Source: Byssochlamys sp. IMV 00236 (taxonomy: Eukaryota; Ascomycota; Eurotiomycetes; Eurotiales; Thermoascaceae). From it: DNA of 15,054 bases. Below the pieces are notes generated by a model, which saw only the letters and a list, made by a program, of their open reading frames with translations, was not told the DNA's origin and made no database searches. Location: positions 1 through 15,054 of the forward strand of contig MSJH02000275.1 in NCBI GenBank assembly GCA_001931875.2, read 5' to 3'. The position numbers and the translations under genes are program-made. Of this stretch, positions 1,003-10,340 are shown piece by piece; the stretch's first letter is position 1, and each line of letters begins with the position of its first letter.

Positions 1003-1297
1003 GTAAGTAAACAAACTCAAGAAAACAAGTATGGCTTCCCTTTGGTTTACTCTTCCCTGGAGAACTATGCGTAGAGGCAATTATCTGTTTTACCTACTAA
1101 CGTTGTACTTAAAAAGAACAACCGAGGGGTGCCAAACCTGATGGTTTGGCTGAGATCATACCCTTATGAGCGGATCATGGTAATTCATGCGTCGCGATGT
1201 GTTTTCTTTTTTCGTACACATACAACAGCAGCAACAGTAATAGTAGTTAGCCGCCAACCCAAATATAAAAAATACTACTAATCTCTTTCTATAACAG
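1003..1297 (+). other. Candidate 3'-UTR intron with alternative acceptors, containing the TPP riboswitch
   Basis: The donor AG|GTAAGT (1001-1008) is consensus and is the donor most used in the neighbouring IRA gene. Two acceptor sets are visible. Set A has branch site TACTAAC (1095-1101) and AG at 1115-1116, giving a 114-nt intron that ends just before the aptamer. Set B has branch site TACTAAT (1276-1282), a short pyrimidine run and ACAG ending at 1297, giving a 295-nt intron that removes the aptamer. In both sets the branch adenosine is 16 nt from the AG. The GTAATT in the aptamer's P5 loop (1180-1185) is a possible internal donor, since the same hexamer is used by IRA intron 9. Fungal TPP riboswitches are known to act through alternative splicing. 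Its location after a stop codon is an inference from the absence of any downstream CDS. Confidence 0.6.
1119..1201 (+). promoter_or_regulatory. TPP (thiamine pyrophosphate) riboswitch aptamer
   Basis: All helices of the TPP (THI-box) fold can be drawn. P2 is GAGGG (1124-1128) with CCCTT (1161-1165), followed by the conserved GGTGCC. P3 is a perfect 8-bp stem, GCCAAACC (1131-1138) with GGTTTGGC (1143-1150), loop TGAT. The pyrimidine-sensing GGCTGAGA is at 1148-1155. P4 is GCG (1170-1172) with CGC (1193-1195). The conserved internal loop is GAT (1173-1175) against CGT (1190-1192). P5 is CATG (1176-1179) with CATG (1186-1189), loop GTAATT. P4 and P5 differ in sequence from the familiar bacterial version but keep pairing, which argues for a selected structure. 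P1 is short (CA/TG), but an outer helix AAAAAGAA (1111-1118) with TTCTTTTT (1204-1211) extends it. In L5 the usual ATAAT core reads GTAAT, a mild deviation. It senses thiamine diphosphate and probably controls splicing of its own transcript. Confidence 0.92.
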
Positions 1298-1608: not shown

Positions 1609-4600
1609 TTATTGATGCTCAGTAATAGCACCCAATAACTTACTGGCTAGCTTGGCATTGACTGTTACATTTGTCTTTACAGCACCAAAAGTAGGATCAA
1701 TAAGAGATGAGAATCTCAAATTATCGAGTCCCCATTTCTGTGTACGCTTTTGAGGCACAGCAAGGAAGGCAGGTTCTGAACATGCAGTCAGTAGGATGTT
1801 TTTCACAGCTTCAATCAAGTCTTGATTTTGGCTGTTGATGACCATTTGGTTCATTTTAGGAAGCAAGGATTCATAACTAGTTAAAAGTTTAGCATCTTGA
1901 AATATGTATGATAACCGTTTTACTTACATGAGAGCGAATACTTCTGGTACCCAATTTGCTGCATCAGCCAGTAAATTATACAAGAAAAGCTTCTCTGATT
2001 CGTTTTCGGATGCATTTAATAATGTAACTAGCAGAGAGACCAAAAGGAGAGCAGTACTATTATCAGGAATTTCAAGGAAATCAAATAGACTTGGCTTTGA
2101 TATTCCTAAATCAATATTCTCCACATCCATTTCACACACGCCTGCTACAGCCAGTAGCTCCTTTAGCTTGTCATCCTTTGCAATAAAGGGTAACAAACCA
2201 GCTAAATAACCAATCGAACGCGACTCTATGAAGCCTTGCTGAACTGACCGCTTTGAATCGATTTGTAAAAATGAACAAAGACAATGATAAACAATGTCCT
2301 TTGATTCACACTGTTTCAATCCCTTTAACAATATAACAGCAATTGCAAAGGAAAAGTACTCGTTAAAGTTTACACCACACGCCTTGTCAAGTTCAAAGGC
2401 ACAGTCCTCCAGGTCGATTCGTGCATCCAATAGGACCTGCTCGATTGTTTTATGAGCAAATATCTTTCTAGAATCGAGTGCACGAAGAACGGAATGAAGG
2501 AGTTCTACAGCTGTCTGAAAGATGGCGGGATGACCAATTTGAACAAGAGCAACCGCAAGCCAGAAGAGATGGAGAATGTATCGAGAATCAGTAGGAAGAT
2601 TGTCAATGATGTTGGTTAAGCACATCATGATACTTATGATCAGATTTGGCTCTGTTTCAATAAAGATGGCTAATGCACCCTTCAGTGCTACCAGGATCTG
2701 ATACAAGAGGTCATCATCTACATCATCTTGAGCAAGGCAGCCTAATACCACGAATGATCTTGGTTGAATAGCAGGATTAAAGTAAAAGGCAGTGCTGGTT
2801 ACTAAGCCCATCCATCTGGCTCTCCACATGTTGGCTATATCAACAGTAGGCGCACCATAATTTAAGGTATCCATCAGTAACTTTACAATATTTTGTAAAG
2901 ACACAAGATTGATCGATTCAGCATAGTCAGAAGTAGTTTCTGTGGTGATGGTAAATGCATTAGCCATTTGTTTTGTAAGCCCAAAGAGAACACGGTTCTT
3001 GCTATCACAGACATCGTTCAGGACAAAATGCAGCTTTTTAACATTTTCTTCAGGCAAGCAAGCATTCATAGTACATAGGGTATGAATAGTATTTACAACA
3101 AGTTCATGCACAGATGATCTAATAAATGTAGGACCAGTAACAACTAAAATGGAGACAACATGGTATATCTCTGGTATATAGGGCACAATAGGCCCAGTGT
3201 TGTTGAATGATAACATGAGGATGAATCGAAGCAGGATTGCAATTTCTTTCCATGCTGGATGTTCAGTCAATTGTCTGCAGGGTTGAAAGGATGTGCTTTC
3301 GATCAATCGTCTCATTCGACTTATAATTTTGCCTCGAATAGATACACTTGACATTGTCACTAACGTATCAGCAATCATCTCAGCCTGAGGAGAGCCTGTA
3401 CCGTATTCAATAGAACACTGTACGAAGCAATCAATCACGAGGTTGACAGTCTCTTCAACTTCTGCCAGTGTCTTCCAGATTTTGGCTTGCATATGTTTAT
3501 AGAGCTAAGTTTAAAATAAGTTTGTTTGTTTGTTTGTTTGTTTTTTTTTCCTTAAAGAAAGAGCAGTGGACGTACCTCTACTCTATTTATGGTCAAGCGG
3601 ATCAGCGATATAATGAATTCCTTTGTCTTTGTAGCACTTGATGTTTGTTCTTCAGGATCATATCTAGCAAAATGTCCCAAGTTTAGCAACCAAGGTACCA
3701 TATAATCTAAACACAATTGCTGCATGCTCTCGTTTGATTTTGTTAAGCCAACGAGTGCTTCATCCAGAAATTCCAATGTCAAATGAAGTTCATTCTGAGC
3801 CAGGCGTTCACTGATTCCCACAATAAAGCTTATACTGTTTGAAGGAATACAAAGATCTAAGAGTTGTAAATAAAGTGCACCTTTTTATGCTCAACTTGTC
3901 ACACATACCTTTAGCATTTAACAATTGATTTCCAACATTAAATTTAAATGAAAGACTTAGAGAATACAGCAAATTGTATGCGGCTAATCGAAGGCCAGGG
4001 TCACTATTTCCAATATTCAACAAGGCCATATTAAGTAATCTTCCAGGAACATCATTTGGTCTGATTGCACGTTCATGTATCATATTAGGTTTAGATGCTT
4101 CATATCGTTGCTTGCTATGACGAAGATGCTATTAAAACAAGGGTCAGATAATCTCTTGAATATGTTTTTATAGATACTTACAGCAAGTATGACGTCTCGT
4201 TGAGCTGAGGCCAAGACCATCGTAGACTTCCCCCTATCATACTTTATGGAAATTTCTCCTCCATTTTCTGATTTAGAAGAAGGTAAAGCGGTTATATCTT
4301 CTATCTCTGATATATGATGAATATCTCGTAATATAGCATGAACGTTATAAAAGAATTCTTGTTTCTTCATCTATGCAAAAAAAAATAAGATGCTGTTTGA
4401 TTATCATTGAATTACATACTGTGATTATTTGTATTTCCTCGAGGCCAATCTTTACAATGACAGGTATGGATGTTCTCAGGTTAGTCAACCTTGTTACTGG
4501 GAAAATTGTGACACAAGCATCCTTCTCAAGGTCCACTGCATATATATAAAGTGATTGGTATACAAGAAAATAAAGTTGAGCTTCTACTTACAAGTCATTT

Positions 4601-7600
4601 TCGAAAGCTTGAATTCTGAAAGCGAAAAGTTTTCATAAAGCTCATTCAAATTTGAATAAAAGCGAAGTCTTTTGATGATTCTGTTTACAATTGGACGAGG
4701 TAGTTTGCTAAGATGACGTTGAAGGTGAGTAGATGGATTATAGATATGTACAGCCACCAGATAATCATTCATCTCGTTAAACATCATGTGGAAAAGCTGG
4801 GTTATCCAATGAATAGGTAGAGCATTAGCGAGAGTAAACCCCGTTGCGTCCACTAACACTTCAAATGGTGAATTCAAATAAGGTTCCATCGCCTAATGAT
4901 TAAACGAGAGGTAAATAGTACTGCTAATAAACTCATCTTGTATTTCACTTACTCTGAGTATATAATACATAAGCAATTCAAGATCCATGCTCTCAGGTTC
5001 TATTGTCCTTGCAAGAAAGTAAAACACGGGTCGTCCTTCTTTTGATTTACCACCAATATAAAAAATGTGCTGTGATCTAATAGCTGAGAGGTCACGATGT
5101 CCATTTCGCTTCATGAATTCGTTAAAGGTACGGTTATTGTTTGCTATCGTATAGTTTCTAGTAGACAAGAAATCCGCGCCATGTACTTCAGAGGGTCGAC
5201 CCAGCTGTGCTAAAAGGGTAGAAAGACGATCAAGTGTCTTTTTGCATCGAAGTAATTTTTCAGTATCGCCTCTTCCAATATTTCTACTGGTTAATTCTCT
5301 AGAGATGCGATCCAAATTATCAGCTAGATAAGTATGAAGCCGAATATAACCTGTTTGATCCATAACCAATGCGCCAGTGGATTGTTCTGGATACTGCGCA
5401 GGTAATGTAGACATTTCTCTCAAGAAGGAAGTTACTCTGTATATATTGGCTGTCAAAAAATCATTCAGAATAATCATGTGTGTTTCCTTTGCACCAAACA
5501 GAACATTGTTGGCGAGATTTTGTATAATTCGCGTTGCCTGAAGTAGAATCTTTCGGACGTTGGTGTTCTTGGGAAGAGCTCCTTTAGCAATGACAGAGTT
5601 TTCTGGAGAAAGAATAGCAGGTCCAAACATGCGTAAAAATACAAATCCACCAACAGCTGTGAAATTAGCCTCTGGAAAGCGGGCTACAACAGATTTACTA
5701 ATTAAAGAAAGTTGCTCACGGAATACCCTAAGTTATATTAGATTACGGTTTTTATATATGAGGGGGTCCACTTACATTGGCGCATTATCAACCGACGAAC
5801 AGATCGCGTTCAATAAAATGTCTGTAGCTTGGATGACATTTTTCTTATTTTTCATGACATCTTCCGAGTTTTTTATCTTTTGCTGATCAAGCTCCCAGGT
5901 GAGTTGATCGTTAGGTAAGGCACAGATTTTTTCTATGGCTGGCAAAAGTGTAAAACGAACATAATCACCACAGACAATCTTGGTATAAATAGACAGAATA
6001 CGTGTAGCAATCGTAGTTCCTCGAAACAAAGTTGCTTCTTGTTCTGTATTATGTAAATTAGTCTATTTTTCTCCTAAGTTCGGATAAAATTACCTGTTTG
6101 CATCACTTCTCGATCTATTATAGCTTTAAGTAATGGAACGATTTTACCACGAGACTCGAAAGAAATCAGTAGTACTTCTGCAAGGCTTGAGATTTCTGAT
6201 GTAGGGCAAACATCACACAGAGCAAGAATGACCTCAATGTCAGCCTCTACCAGTGTCTAATAGTTGTAGATTTAGCAAATGATTTTTGAAGAAACTATCA
6301 TTTCTCGATCTTACGTCAATCAGCTTTTCGTATCTATCTGTCATCACACTTTCTGCCAGTGTCTCGAATTCAGTGCCATGGTCAAGGATGTTTGTCAATA
6401 CTTGCATGAACGAACAACGTGTCTTTTGATCGTCGTCGTAGCCCATTGATAACGAATACTTGAGTCCAGCGTCCACATTTGCACTTAGTAAATGTGACAT
6501 GGCTAGAATGGTCAACTCTTTCATTTGAATAATATCTTGAAGTGAATCTGCTGTTGTTGATGTGCCTGTGCTTGAAGATGCTAATGACCTGTATGATCCA
6601 TCCCTGTGGTCTATAGTCATCTTATTTGTCATTATGTCTCGCTCTGCGCGTTTGCTTCTGTCCAGAATCTTTCTGAAAAAGTTAAAATACTTTAAGAATA
6701 GTTTGTTTTTGATTAAAGATGCATCCGAAAGTCGAACAGTCTCGGTGCTCTGGAGTGGAAGTTGATGTAGTACATTTACAACAGCCTTCATACATGCAAG
6801 ATCCAAGTCCTTCTGAAGTCGTTCCACCTGTGGCCCGTCTTCAAGTGGCTTTCGTAACTGTGTTTATAAATAGAGTATTAGTGCTGTATTATAAAGTGCA
6901 AAGGACACTTACAAGAGCAATGTCACTTGTCCATTCAATAAGAATATCCAGTAGTCTATTACGCAGTACAATTTCATTTTGAATGATTATATTTTCCTTC
7001 TTTGCCATCAGCACTTCAATAAGCATACACGTCTTGATTTTGATACGCAATGTGATATGGGTATTGGGTACACCATCCAAATAGTCTATAAATTGGAACA
7101 TCAAAGTACTAAAGTCGATGTTTAGCAAGCAGTCGCTAGGATTGATCAAGCGGTCCAAGATGAGTCTCAAAACAAGTACAGATTGTTCAACAAATAGTTT
7201 GTTCTGTGGGTTACGAATCGCCTTGCCATTTGCATCAAATAGCTTTTTCATGTAGTTTTCCAAATGACGGAATAGGATTGCTAGTAAGGTGGGAGAGAGG
7301 TCATTACCAAGAATATCCTTGATGCCTTCTCTGACATAAACGTTGTTTGAGACAAGCATTTCTGTCATTTCTAAAATAAAACCATCCACCATGGCAACAG
7401 GCTCATTGCTAGTTCTCCGTGAATAGTCCGATGACAAACTGACTACTTCATCCATATCTCTTTCTTCTGTTAGACAGCAGCCACCTAGAGCAGCCAAAAA
7501 TCCTGTAAAGTTATGCCACTCGATTGATCTGTTTTCATTTAATTCCACACTTTGCTGTGCTCTAATATTAGGCGTTGAAATCGTGTTACTGCTGGTACTT

Positions 7601-10340
7601 TCTTTATTTTTCGTTTTATCTTTCTTCCCATCCTGTGAGGCCTTTTTGAAACCTCCGCTCATTCCTGTATATATAACAAAATTATGAATGCTCCTGTAGA
7701 GACCTTATTATGATATACGTACCTTCTTTATTATTTTCTTCAACTTCTCCATCCTGGGGTCTGTTCACGTAAGGTGTTAACATGAGCCATCTCTTCCAAG
7801 CTTCTTCCCATGCTGCGAAGCAACTCGGTGTGTGATGTGGAAGCATCTGTAGACATTTTCGAAACCGCTTTTGCTGAGCCTTTCTTCCAACAAATCTGTA
7901 ATTATCTACCGAAAGATCTTCATAGACCTCCAGATTACATGCTAAAGTGGCTTGATTGGGGCCTTCTTCACATATGTCAACAATTTTTGCTTCCTGACAC
8001 ATGATTCTAATACAGACAGATGCTTCATCACAGACTTCCTTATGAGCAGAGCACAAAAATATTAAAAGGGCAATTTCCAATGATATAGATGCCTGTATTC
8101 TTTCCTTGACATTTGTTGTTTCTATATTGAATAGTGCCTAGAGTATACAGAATGAACACCAACTCCTATTAACAACTGGGCCAAACTCACCTGTTTATGC
8201 TTCAAATACACACTTCGGGTTTTTAGCAATTTTATTGTAACGTTCAATAAAAATCTTTGCATATCTTGTTTTAAAGAAGTATCCAACATATGATTCGAAA
8301 TAGTGACGATAGCAGGGGAAGTTATTTTCCAAAAGTGATACAAATTATTTGAGTCCGTTGTCCAACGTGCTGCAATCTCAGGTTGATGTAATTTTATAAG
8401 CAACTCTGCGGCATCTTGTCGCACCACCTGTACAGGATGAACTAAAAGAGTAGCAAGTCCATTCATGAATGTACTGTTTTGTTCAACTCTATCGAGGTCT
8501 TCACCGAAAACTGCCAAGATTGGGTCTGTTCTATAAAGCTTGAGCATATCTACCAACAATTCCACTCGACTTCTATGATTCGTAAGTACTGACTCTTTCT
8601 GCTTGGACATCTCCAGTTGGATCGTTTGCCGCATCAATGACCGAAGCGGCGCACAGATTCCATCGTACAGGGATGACAAAGAAGGGTTCCAGGGCAAATG
8701 ATTCTCTTCCAGTACAATCATTAAACACGATTTTACCAAAGCCAGCTTTACAATAATAGGCGCGTTTTCATCAATGCATGGAGGGATCAGTGTCTTTATT
8801 GCATTTTCCTTGTCGAGTCTGATACGTGATAATAGATAATCTGTGGCTAAAGTTTGATAGTCGATAATATACCCCAACGTGTGCATGGTGGATTCCGCAT
8901 TCGCTAGTTTTGAAAAATTCCATACTTTATCCCTCAAATCCGTCTCAACATCAGCCGCCATCAGTCGTAGTATTGAATCCTCGCTTGGTGGAACATAAGT
9001 CGCTGCTTTACAAACATCTACATAACAAACAGTCGCAAGATCCAAGGCTTTGGTTGTCTGTAGTGATTTCCGTAACAGGTGGATGAAATTAACACGACGA
9101 CTAGAAGGTTGATCCATAAATGCCTGCATCAAAAATTCAGGAGAGAGTATGATCAGGATAGTCTGTAATGGCCAAAGGATCGATCGTTTTTTCGAATTAT
9201 CTGCTGTAGAGTTGCACATATCAAAAAGTAGTTCGGAGTCGGGTAATTCATCAACAGTGCACACTTGAGCAAATTCTTCTGGGTATAATTCTATCCATCT
9301 CCAGATGGATTTCCTCAGTAGTTTTGAGAATAGTAATTTTCCTTGTGTTTTCATATGCAAATAGTATGGGATCAATTCTGATAGATCTACAGTTAGTCTA
9401 AAATGGGTAATGGATCAAGATATCTCTACCTTTGAACACGACCTTTAGCCTTTCCTTATTAAGACAGATGCACTCTAACATTCTGATTTCAGGTGGAATA
9501 TCTTCTGTATTGTTCGAATGTGTGGAACCTAATCTTAAAACAGCGCTTTTGATTTTGGCGTAACAAGCGTCCCAGTTACTTGAACTGACATAATATATAA
9601 TCTTTGCTGAGGCTTTGTATATTTCGGTGATCAAGCTCAACTTCATCTGCCCATAGGTATATTTTGTACCATCGAAATCATATATCGGGTGCGGCGTTAT
9701 TTCTGAATTAGTTTCTTCTATTAAATGATACTGTGTGATATATCGACTCATTAGGACAAGTATAAAGGTCACAAGCGGCGCATCTAATGGTGGTAAGTTG
9801 AGTCTAAGTTCGTTAGATGGTCTCTCTGGGTGTTTTTCTTTTTCCTGCTCGCAGTAATAATGCCAGTGATGTTGCATACATGCAGATAATAAACGAAGTA
9901 CAAACAGTTTCGACTGCATAATATCCACTGGTACATTTTGTTCATAAATTTGATGTGTCTATTATTGTTATTTTCGAATGAGATATATTAAGCAATGTCT
10001 TGAATAAAAAGCTGTACCTTTGATACATTCTCTAATACATAGCCTAGAGTATTTGCTATAGTCGGTAGTCTATACTTTGATACTTCGATAAGGGCAGCAA
10101 CTACATAAAATGGTAAGCAATGCCAATTTGTTTCTGTACGAGAGACGCTTATTCACCAGTTTGTTTCACAATGGGATCTTGTTCTACTGCTTCTATGGGC
10201 TGTCCCGATTTATATGGCAACTATTATATGTTTAGCCTTTGCTGCGACACACAAGTCAGCGTGTGTGTGAAAAAGTCTCAACTTACTCGGATCGCTACAC
10301 GATGAACGAGATTACCAATGAGTTTTGCGCTTGTTCTCAT
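1609..10340 (-). CDS. ira1: Neurofibromin/Ira-type Ras GTPase-activating protein, complete, 18 exons
   Basis: Exons (minus strand, 5' to 3'): 10340-10287, 10220-10157, 10100-10018, 9958-9430, 9386-8191, 8137-7723, 7664-6913, 6857-6315, 6256-6094, 6043-5776, 5727-4953, 4892-4592, 4535-4420, 4370-4182, 4128-3909, 3856-3576, 3504-1928, 1876-1609. They sum to 7,794 nt, 2,597 residues plus TAA, with all junctions in phase. Introns are 43-71 nt and all start GT and end AG. The start ATG has an in-frame TAA directly before it. The protein resembles NF1 and yeast Ira1/Ira2 (about 2,800-3,100 residues). An N-terminal helical region is followed by RasGAP (about 1165-1520), a Sec14-like lipid-binding fold (1550-1710), a PH-like domain (1715-1825) and a C-terminal HEAT-like region, where LCIPSNS and NELHLTLEFL are typical NF1 signatures. 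It should accelerate GTP hydrolysis by Ras at membranes, lowering Ras/cAMP signalling. No inactivating lesion is seen. Confidence 0.95.
3521..3549. repeat. (TTTG)5 microsatellite followed by T9, in IRA intron 16
   Basis: Five TTTG units (3521-3540) run into nine T (3541-3549). The repeat lies between the donor (3575) and acceptor (3505) of IRA intron 16 and makes it the longest intron of the gene at 71 nt. On the sense strand it is CAAA-rich, so it does not supply a pyrimidine tract. Confidence 0.9.
4102..5147 (-). other. Sec14-like and PH-like module of the IRA gene (exons 11-15)
   Basis: Directly after the GAP domain, segments such as HIFYIGGKSKEGRPVFYFLA, MDLELLMYYILR, SPFEVLVDATGF and YLVAVHIYNPS follow the Sec14/CRAL-TRIO pattern of neurofibromin, which binds a glycerophospholipid. 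The next segment, with VTRLTNLRTSIPVIVKIG and HHISEIED, corresponds to the PH-like domain. Module order GAP-Sec14-PH is the neurofibromin order, which separates this gene from simple RasGAPs. Confidence 0.85.
5237..6458 (-). other. RasGAP catalytic domain of the IRA gene (spans exons 8-11)
   Basis: The arginine finger is in TLFRGTT, Arg about 1274 by my count, matching NF1 TLFRG. The structural FLRxxxPA motif reads FLRMFGPAILSPE (about 1386-1398), and the later NNVLFGAKETHM (about 1429-1440) matches the Ras-contacting helix. The upstream TRCSFMQVLT and GTEFETLAESV are NF1-like. All key residues needed for activity are present. The domain is interrupted by three introns (6257-6314, 6044-6093, 5728-5775). 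Confidence 0.93.

Follow-up and report, generated by a model that had tools for sequence, protein, structure and literature searches.

A TPP aptamer past the stop codon of a transporter gene, and likewise behind THI4 and NMT1, in a Rhizopus-like mould: likely thiamine control from the message tail

Background

The locus described here raises the question of whether a thiamine pyrophosphate (TPP) aptamer that lies behind the stop codon of a fungal transporter gene belongs to that gene, and how it could act from there. The TPP riboswitches so far characterised in fungi work from the 5' side, and demonstrated control from the 3' UTR is best known from THIC of plants. The sequence analysed (hereafter the window) is the whole of contig C275, 15,054 bases long, and its left end cuts the gene of an SP-family MFS transporter.

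In the sections used here, PMC5882874 places each of the fungal TPP riboswitch types I-IV in the 5' UTR or in an internal intron. It refers to one NMT1 aptamer from Mucor and, for the 3' UTR in fungi, to a single case, eIF5B of Postia placenta, which its authors could not validate. A TPPsw-SUGAR group from Mucoromycota and Basidiomycota was described in 2024 (PMC11683625, in excerpt), with aptamers accompanying "sugar transporters", chiefly in Mucoromycota, consistently in the 5' UTR and with regulation of type I or III. The preliminary description of the window had called a 3'-UTR TPP switch on a fungal transporter unusual; the link of TPP aptamers to sugar-family transporters in Mucoromycota was thus already in print, with a 5'-UTR placement (PMC11683625, same excerpt). 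A search of the open-licence PubMed Central literature, including the available sections of PMC5882874, PMC11683625, PMC8786325, PMC5997356, PMC4133162 and PMC10226581, found no 3'-UTR TPP switch in Mucorales. The tie of the aptamer to this transporter family is already known; what appears new against this literature is the 3' placement of a TPP riboswitch in a fungus.

The aptamer and its surroundings

The following features of the window are needed first:

2-919, + strand: SP-family MFS transporter, C-terminal 305 residues (186-490 of 490); Pfam Sugar_tr 198.3 bits, 99% identity to P0002 of R. microsporus
1115-1214, + strand: TPP riboswitch aptamer including the 3' tail; RF00059, 53.6 bits, E 1.4e-9
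1115-1205, + strand: aptamer core with an alternative P1 (1115-1120/1200-1205), whose 5' strand includes the predicted acceptor AG; from the isolated fold of 1113-1205
1609-9958, - strand: convergent RasGAP/IRA-like gene of several exons, given as stop-to-stop frames with introns unplaced; Pfam RasGAP in 4896-5732

The check with the Rfam TPP covariance model that the preliminary description had proposed bore out an aptamer on the + strand: the match spans the full model (1-105), and the E-value of the 801-base search given above becomes 6.9e-8 in 39.9 kb and 1.9e-8 across the 47.4 Mb assembly. The gathering score of RF00059, a curation cut-off and not a biological trait, is 54.3 bits; the aptamer falls 0.7 bit short of it, which is why a scan of the whole window at the gathering threshold listed no TPP element. 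No further TPP match was found at E <= 0.1 in the window, which begins inside the transporter gene.

The alignment to RF00059 shows helices P2, P3, P4 and P5 together with the CUGAGA junction and, where P4 and P5 meet, GCG. The core fold that marks the family, including the GCG of the pyrophosphate pocket, is thus present. The earlier claim of "every TPP helix" with its loops is accurate to this extent, but P3a was not found in this alignment and the model's P1 is poor, with two of five pairs non-standard. A six-pair P1 (1115-1120/1200-1205) appears in the minimum-energy fold of the isolated segment 1113-1205, while the long RNA, when folded without constraint to its minimum energy, forms neither P1 nor P2 of the aptamer.

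Membership of the transporter in the SP family is clear (TIGR00879 on P0002: 301.3 bits, cut-off 237.8). Its stop codon ends at 919. Of the 40 nearest relatives, 29 continue past this point by no more than one residue and the other 11 by 3 to 25; the C-termini of the relatives agree with this stop, which is therefore the natural end of the transporter. The aptamer match begins 195 nt further on, on the same strand, in keeping with the roughly 200 nt estimated earlier. The absent 5' part of the transporter has no near-identical copy in the assembly (best other match 41%); the 5' UTR of the gene thus lies outside the assembly and may carry a second aptamer. A search of the assembly for a second copy of the transporter/aptamer locus found none. 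Ortholog-alignment scans of genome contigs and viral contigs for relatives' DNA in which conservation of the placement could be followed confirmed no relative.

It was also correct that no coding sequence intervenes before the convergent IRA gene: no + strand ATG ORF that begins in 1206-1608 exceeds 27 codons, the length of the longest, and the RasGAP piece lies on the - strand. The aptamer could otherwise be regarded as leading a transcript of its own, or a downstream gene that is lost or unannotated; an ORF of this size followed by a convergent gene, together with the repetition of the placement behind THI4 and NMT1 (see below), genes whose functions suit a TPP switch, makes this most improbable. 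Pfam matched two of the five pieces of the RasGAP/IRA-like gene that were tested; its C-terminal part (1927-3504, - strand) gives a weak match to MOR2-PAG1_C (27.6 bits, cut-off 25).

The same placement behind THI4 and NMT1

The RF00059 search of the 47.4 Mb assembly returned six matches at E <= 0.001, among which the window aptamer ranks second. The loci retrieved from the assembly are split by GC content into a low group (~0.36-0.41), which is Rhizopus-type, and a higher one (~0.45-0.53), which is ascomycete-like. The low-GC group comprises the window aptamer and two others, L003 (51.4 bits) and L004 (42.9 bits), both likewise below the gathering score. L003, on contig C525, is THI4 (Pfam Thi4, 330 bits), with 99% identity to the thiamine thiazole synthase of R. 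microsporus and the same C-terminus. L004, on contig C118, is NMT1 (Pfam, 186 bits); its best named match is a protein of R. arrhizus (94%) and its top match a metagenome protein; it is attributed to Rhizopus by GC content and the R. arrhizus match. In THI4 the aptamer begins 81 nt past the stop codon and in NMT1 104 nt past it, so that on all three Rhizopus-type contigs it lies behind the stop and on the same strand. No second TPP match was found at E <= 0.1 around THI4 (8.0 kb) or NMT1 (9.7 kb). GC content and protein identity (99% and 99% to R. microsporus, 94% to R. arrhizus) suggest that C275, C525 and C118 would come from one organism.

By the covariance model, the Rhizopus-type element is a TPP-family aptamer, and because its placement recurs behind THI4 and NMT1 the observation is stronger than first stated. 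A relic or silent aptamer, which may bind TPP without regulating its gene, is distinctly unlikely. It would agree with the score of the window aptamer slightly below gathering and with its weak P1, and diatom genes with predicted 3'-UTR TPP aptamers, which resemble the present ones in position and in their thiamine-related genes but belong to another lineage, have been reported not to respond to thiamine (PMC9544697, in the part available). However, the three Rhizopus-type aptamers, which stand behind three different genes, have all kept the core helices and the ligand-contacting motifs, and relics should decay. It is likely that this R. microsporus-like mould steers its vitamin B1 genes from the tail end of their messages, in the manner of plants, and not from the front as in characterised fungi.

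Predicted 3'-UTR introns and possible modes of control

Motif scans of the region between the transporter gene and the convergent gene gave the following + strand candidates:

961-966, + strand: AATAAA ahead of the predicted intron, a candidate for the proximal poly(A) signal; motif scan, function predicted
1003-1116, + strand: predicted 3'-UTR intron of the transporter; donor GTAAGT at 1003, branch TACTAAC at 1095-1101, acceptor AG at 1115-1116
1180-1297, + strand: second, weak candidate intron; donor GTAATT at 1180-1185, which is the aptamer's L5 loop, branch TACTAAT at 1276, CAG ending at 1297
1262-1269, + strand: AATATAAA, weak candidate poly(A) signal past the aptamer; AATAAA again at 1452

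The second candidate intron would split the window aptamer in two. NMT1 has a predicted intron of its own (GTAACT at 1402, TACTAAT at 1438, CAG ending at 1500), with the aptamer match starting at 1501, and in both genes the intron motifs thus abut the edge of the aptamer (in the transporter the AG ends at 1116 and the match starts at 1115). A scan of the 3' region of THI4 found no set of donor, branch and acceptor; a splicing mechanism is therefore not common to all three genes. Any such set arose in 414 of 20000 dinucleotide shuffles for the transporter and in 18 of 20000 for NMT1; when the set also had to end no more than 12 nt from the edge of the aptamer, the counts were 181 and 16 of 20000, respectively. 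These are figures that flatter the case for the introns, as the shuffled regions were picked after the motifs were known. Strict donor plus TACTAAY sets occur twice on the + strand of the 15 kb window, both at the aptamer, and once on the - strand. The transporter acceptor is AAG, not the best kind. Candidate introns of the IRA-like gene were considered as a calibration of the splice motifs and rejected, being too ambiguous, with a scoring that favoured CAG/TAG acceptors.

Removal of 1003-1116 would exchange one AG for another: AG at 1001-1002 would be joined to AACA at 1117-1120, and the 5' strand of P1 would therefore be rebuilt. When the aptamer was forced to form in four fold windows, with P1 over 1115-1120, the unpaired fraction of the acceptor region fell (0.40-0.49 before, 0.06-0.20 after), a test that is partly circular, as P1 was imposed over the AG; the unpaired fraction of the donor was unchanged at 0.28-0.29 in the same four windows. 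The forced aptamer costs 5.8-10.0 kcal/mol, which ligand binding would need to pay. A special structure between the stop codon and the aptamer was also considered and rejected: the fold places the donor in a long hairpin, but it has a z of -1.13, and 23 of 200 shuffles give an equally good fold.

We consider it a serious possibility, somewhat short of probable, that the transporter aptamer, like those of THI4 and NMT1, lowers the expression of its own gene from the 3' UTR when TPP is high, with P1 and the acceptor as the likely site of action. The mRNA of the transporter would run past the stop codon into the aptamer as one transcript, and its 3' UTR would hold the intron 1003-1116, with the acceptor AG at the very start of P1. 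By stabilising P1, TPP would mask the acceptor splice site, and the message would then keep another form of the 3' UTR, less stable or less well processed. Since P1 would regain its 5' strand upon splicing, the spliced message could still bind TPP. TPP binding, the response and its direction are all inferred here.

A switch of the kind known from plant THIC could be proposed for the same parts. Without TPP, P4-P5 would pair with the 3'-UTR donor; TPP would free the donor, splicing would drop the poly(A) site and the resulting long tail would destabilise the mRNA. The order of the parts (stop, donor, acceptor, aptamer) is THIC-like, and the predicted NMT1 intron contains TATAAA (1476). However, the duplexes between donor and P4-P5 are at chance level (matched by 635 of 1000 shuffles for the transporter and by 644 of 1000 for NMT1), those between the donor and the whole aptamer do not stand out either (181 and 944 of 1000), and AATAAA at 961 in the transporter precedes the donor and hence lies outside the predicted intron. 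The plant-style pairing was rejected as unsupported by duplex folding against shuffles, and this mechanism appears very unlikely.

Control without splicing would accommodate THI4, which has no intron motif. Here TPP would act by way of base pairing between the 3' strand of P1 and downstream sequence, altering the choice of poly(A) signal or making the tail more or less stable. Hexamers resembling poly(A) signals follow all three aptamers, at 1262-1269 and 1452 in the transporter and as AATAAA at 1614 in THI4 (5 nt past the aptamer match) and at 1665 in NMT1, although such hexamers are common in AT-rich tails. Hairpins that use the 3' side of P1 or adjacent bases are matched by 37 of 1000 shuffles for the transporter and 22 of 1000 for THI4; that of NMT1 is ordinary (249 of 1000), and the intron motifs that abut two of the aptamers are not accounted for. 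On balance we regard control without splicing as rather unlikely.

Probable cargo of the transporter

In sugar porters the sugar is held by Q, QQ, N and W of TM5, TM7 and TM10, as seen in the structures of GLUT, XylE and STP10. HMMER alignments place S167, A290, A291, Y296 and Y409 of the transporter where STP10 and GlcP have Q, Q, Q, N and W, so that all five of the sugar-coordinating residues expected of a functional sugar porter are absent. In a MAFFT alignment of the 120 matches listed, 36 of the nearest 40 (the first by E-value) have SAAxY and none has QQQNW, the remaining four having SASYY, SAAYF, SCAYY and -SAVY; among the next 80 of the 120 listed, QQQNW is found in 16 and a pattern starting with TT in 44. 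Of the Rhizopus-type paralogues, the one on C787 (L009) has QQQNW and the one on C10 has TTCVY.

No TPP match was found at E <= 5 near the two closest Rhizopus-type paralogues (L008/L050 on C10, L009 on C787). The SP-family paralogue L050 (G000:C10:8131-9354) has also lost its sugar-coordinating residues (TTCVY) and lacks a neighbouring TPP aptamer; a lost sugar site is therefore not by itself associated with an aptamer. Taken together, the aptamer and the lost sugar site suggest that thiamine or a precursor is likely to be the cargo, in preference to a sugar, because the transporter is without all five of the sugar-holding residues. The label of sugar porter thus stands for the family (TIGR00879, Sugar_tr), whereas sugar as the cargo is probably wrong. 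The aptamer suggests thiamine uptake as the function of a conserved transporter that databases label as a sugar porter.

On a broader reading, which we hold tentatively and judge a little further from probable than the mechanism proposed above, THI4, NMT1 and the orphan transporter would form a thiamine regulon of Mucorales that is run by 3'-UTR TPP riboswitches, a fungal equivalent of the arrangement in plant THIC but with a switch unlike that of THIC, namely P1 over the acceptor site or beside a poly(A) signal, and the "sugar transporter" would be the missing thiamine transporter of Mucorales.

Relationship to known TPP riboswitches

The Rhizopus-type aptamers belong to the same family as those of fungal types I-IV (Neurospora NMT1, Aspergillus thiA), for which THI4 and NMT1 are classic targets, but all three lie past the stop codon, outside the positions by which these types are defined in the sections used of PMC5882874. 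With plant THIC, as presented in the part of PMC10226581 available, they share the 3' location at thiamine genes and, in the transporter and NMT1, donor and acceptor motifs upstream of the aptamer; they differ in that the pairing of donor and P4-P5 lacks support, the poly(A) signal of the transporter is outside the predicted intron, and the organism is a fungus and the genes are others. The position 3' of the stop that the THIC type requires is seen in the sequence for THI4, NMT1 and the transporter, and we infer that the aptamers are part of the mRNAs.

Like the TPPsw-SUGAR group (PMC11683625, in excerpt), the window has a TPP aptamer at a gene of the sugar-transporter family in Mucoromycota, but here the aptamer lies 195 nt 3' of the stop codon and the protein is without sugar-binding residues. 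The gene family of that group is probably the same as that of the window transporter, and the published 5'-UTR placement may derive from different genes or from the way genes were annotated. If a fungal lineage keeps its aptamers past the stop, riboswitch control from the 3' UTR has evolved on more than one occasion or has an older origin than supposed, and the published 5'-UTR assignments in Mucoromycota (type I/III) need to be re-checked.

Aptamers of the ascomycete-like part

The mixed assembly holds two THI4 and two NMT1 genes, and four higher-GC aptamers were considered. In the ascomycete-like NMT1 (L006) the aptamer is on the 5' side. The ascomycete-like THI4 (L040) has it upstream, at 1917-2004 on the - strand, as a weak match (31.3 bits, E 0.0098), below the reach of the assembly-wide search at E <= 0.001. 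A third (L005) lies upstream of an ORF, a 153-residue piece of which has no Pfam match. The fourth (L001, 1501-1607 on the - strand, G000:C804:216948-217054) is the best TPP match of the assembly, at 62.3 bits and above gathering. It is located 162 nt 3' of an amino-acid permease gene (AA_permease_2) and converges with a carboxylesterase gene. This aptamer is also 3' of a gene, and the 3' placement is therefore not limited to the Rhizopus part. It is flanked by GTAAGT directly before and CTCTAG after. The contig pairs C343/C348, C724/C734 and C602/C746 carry identical matches and look duplicated.
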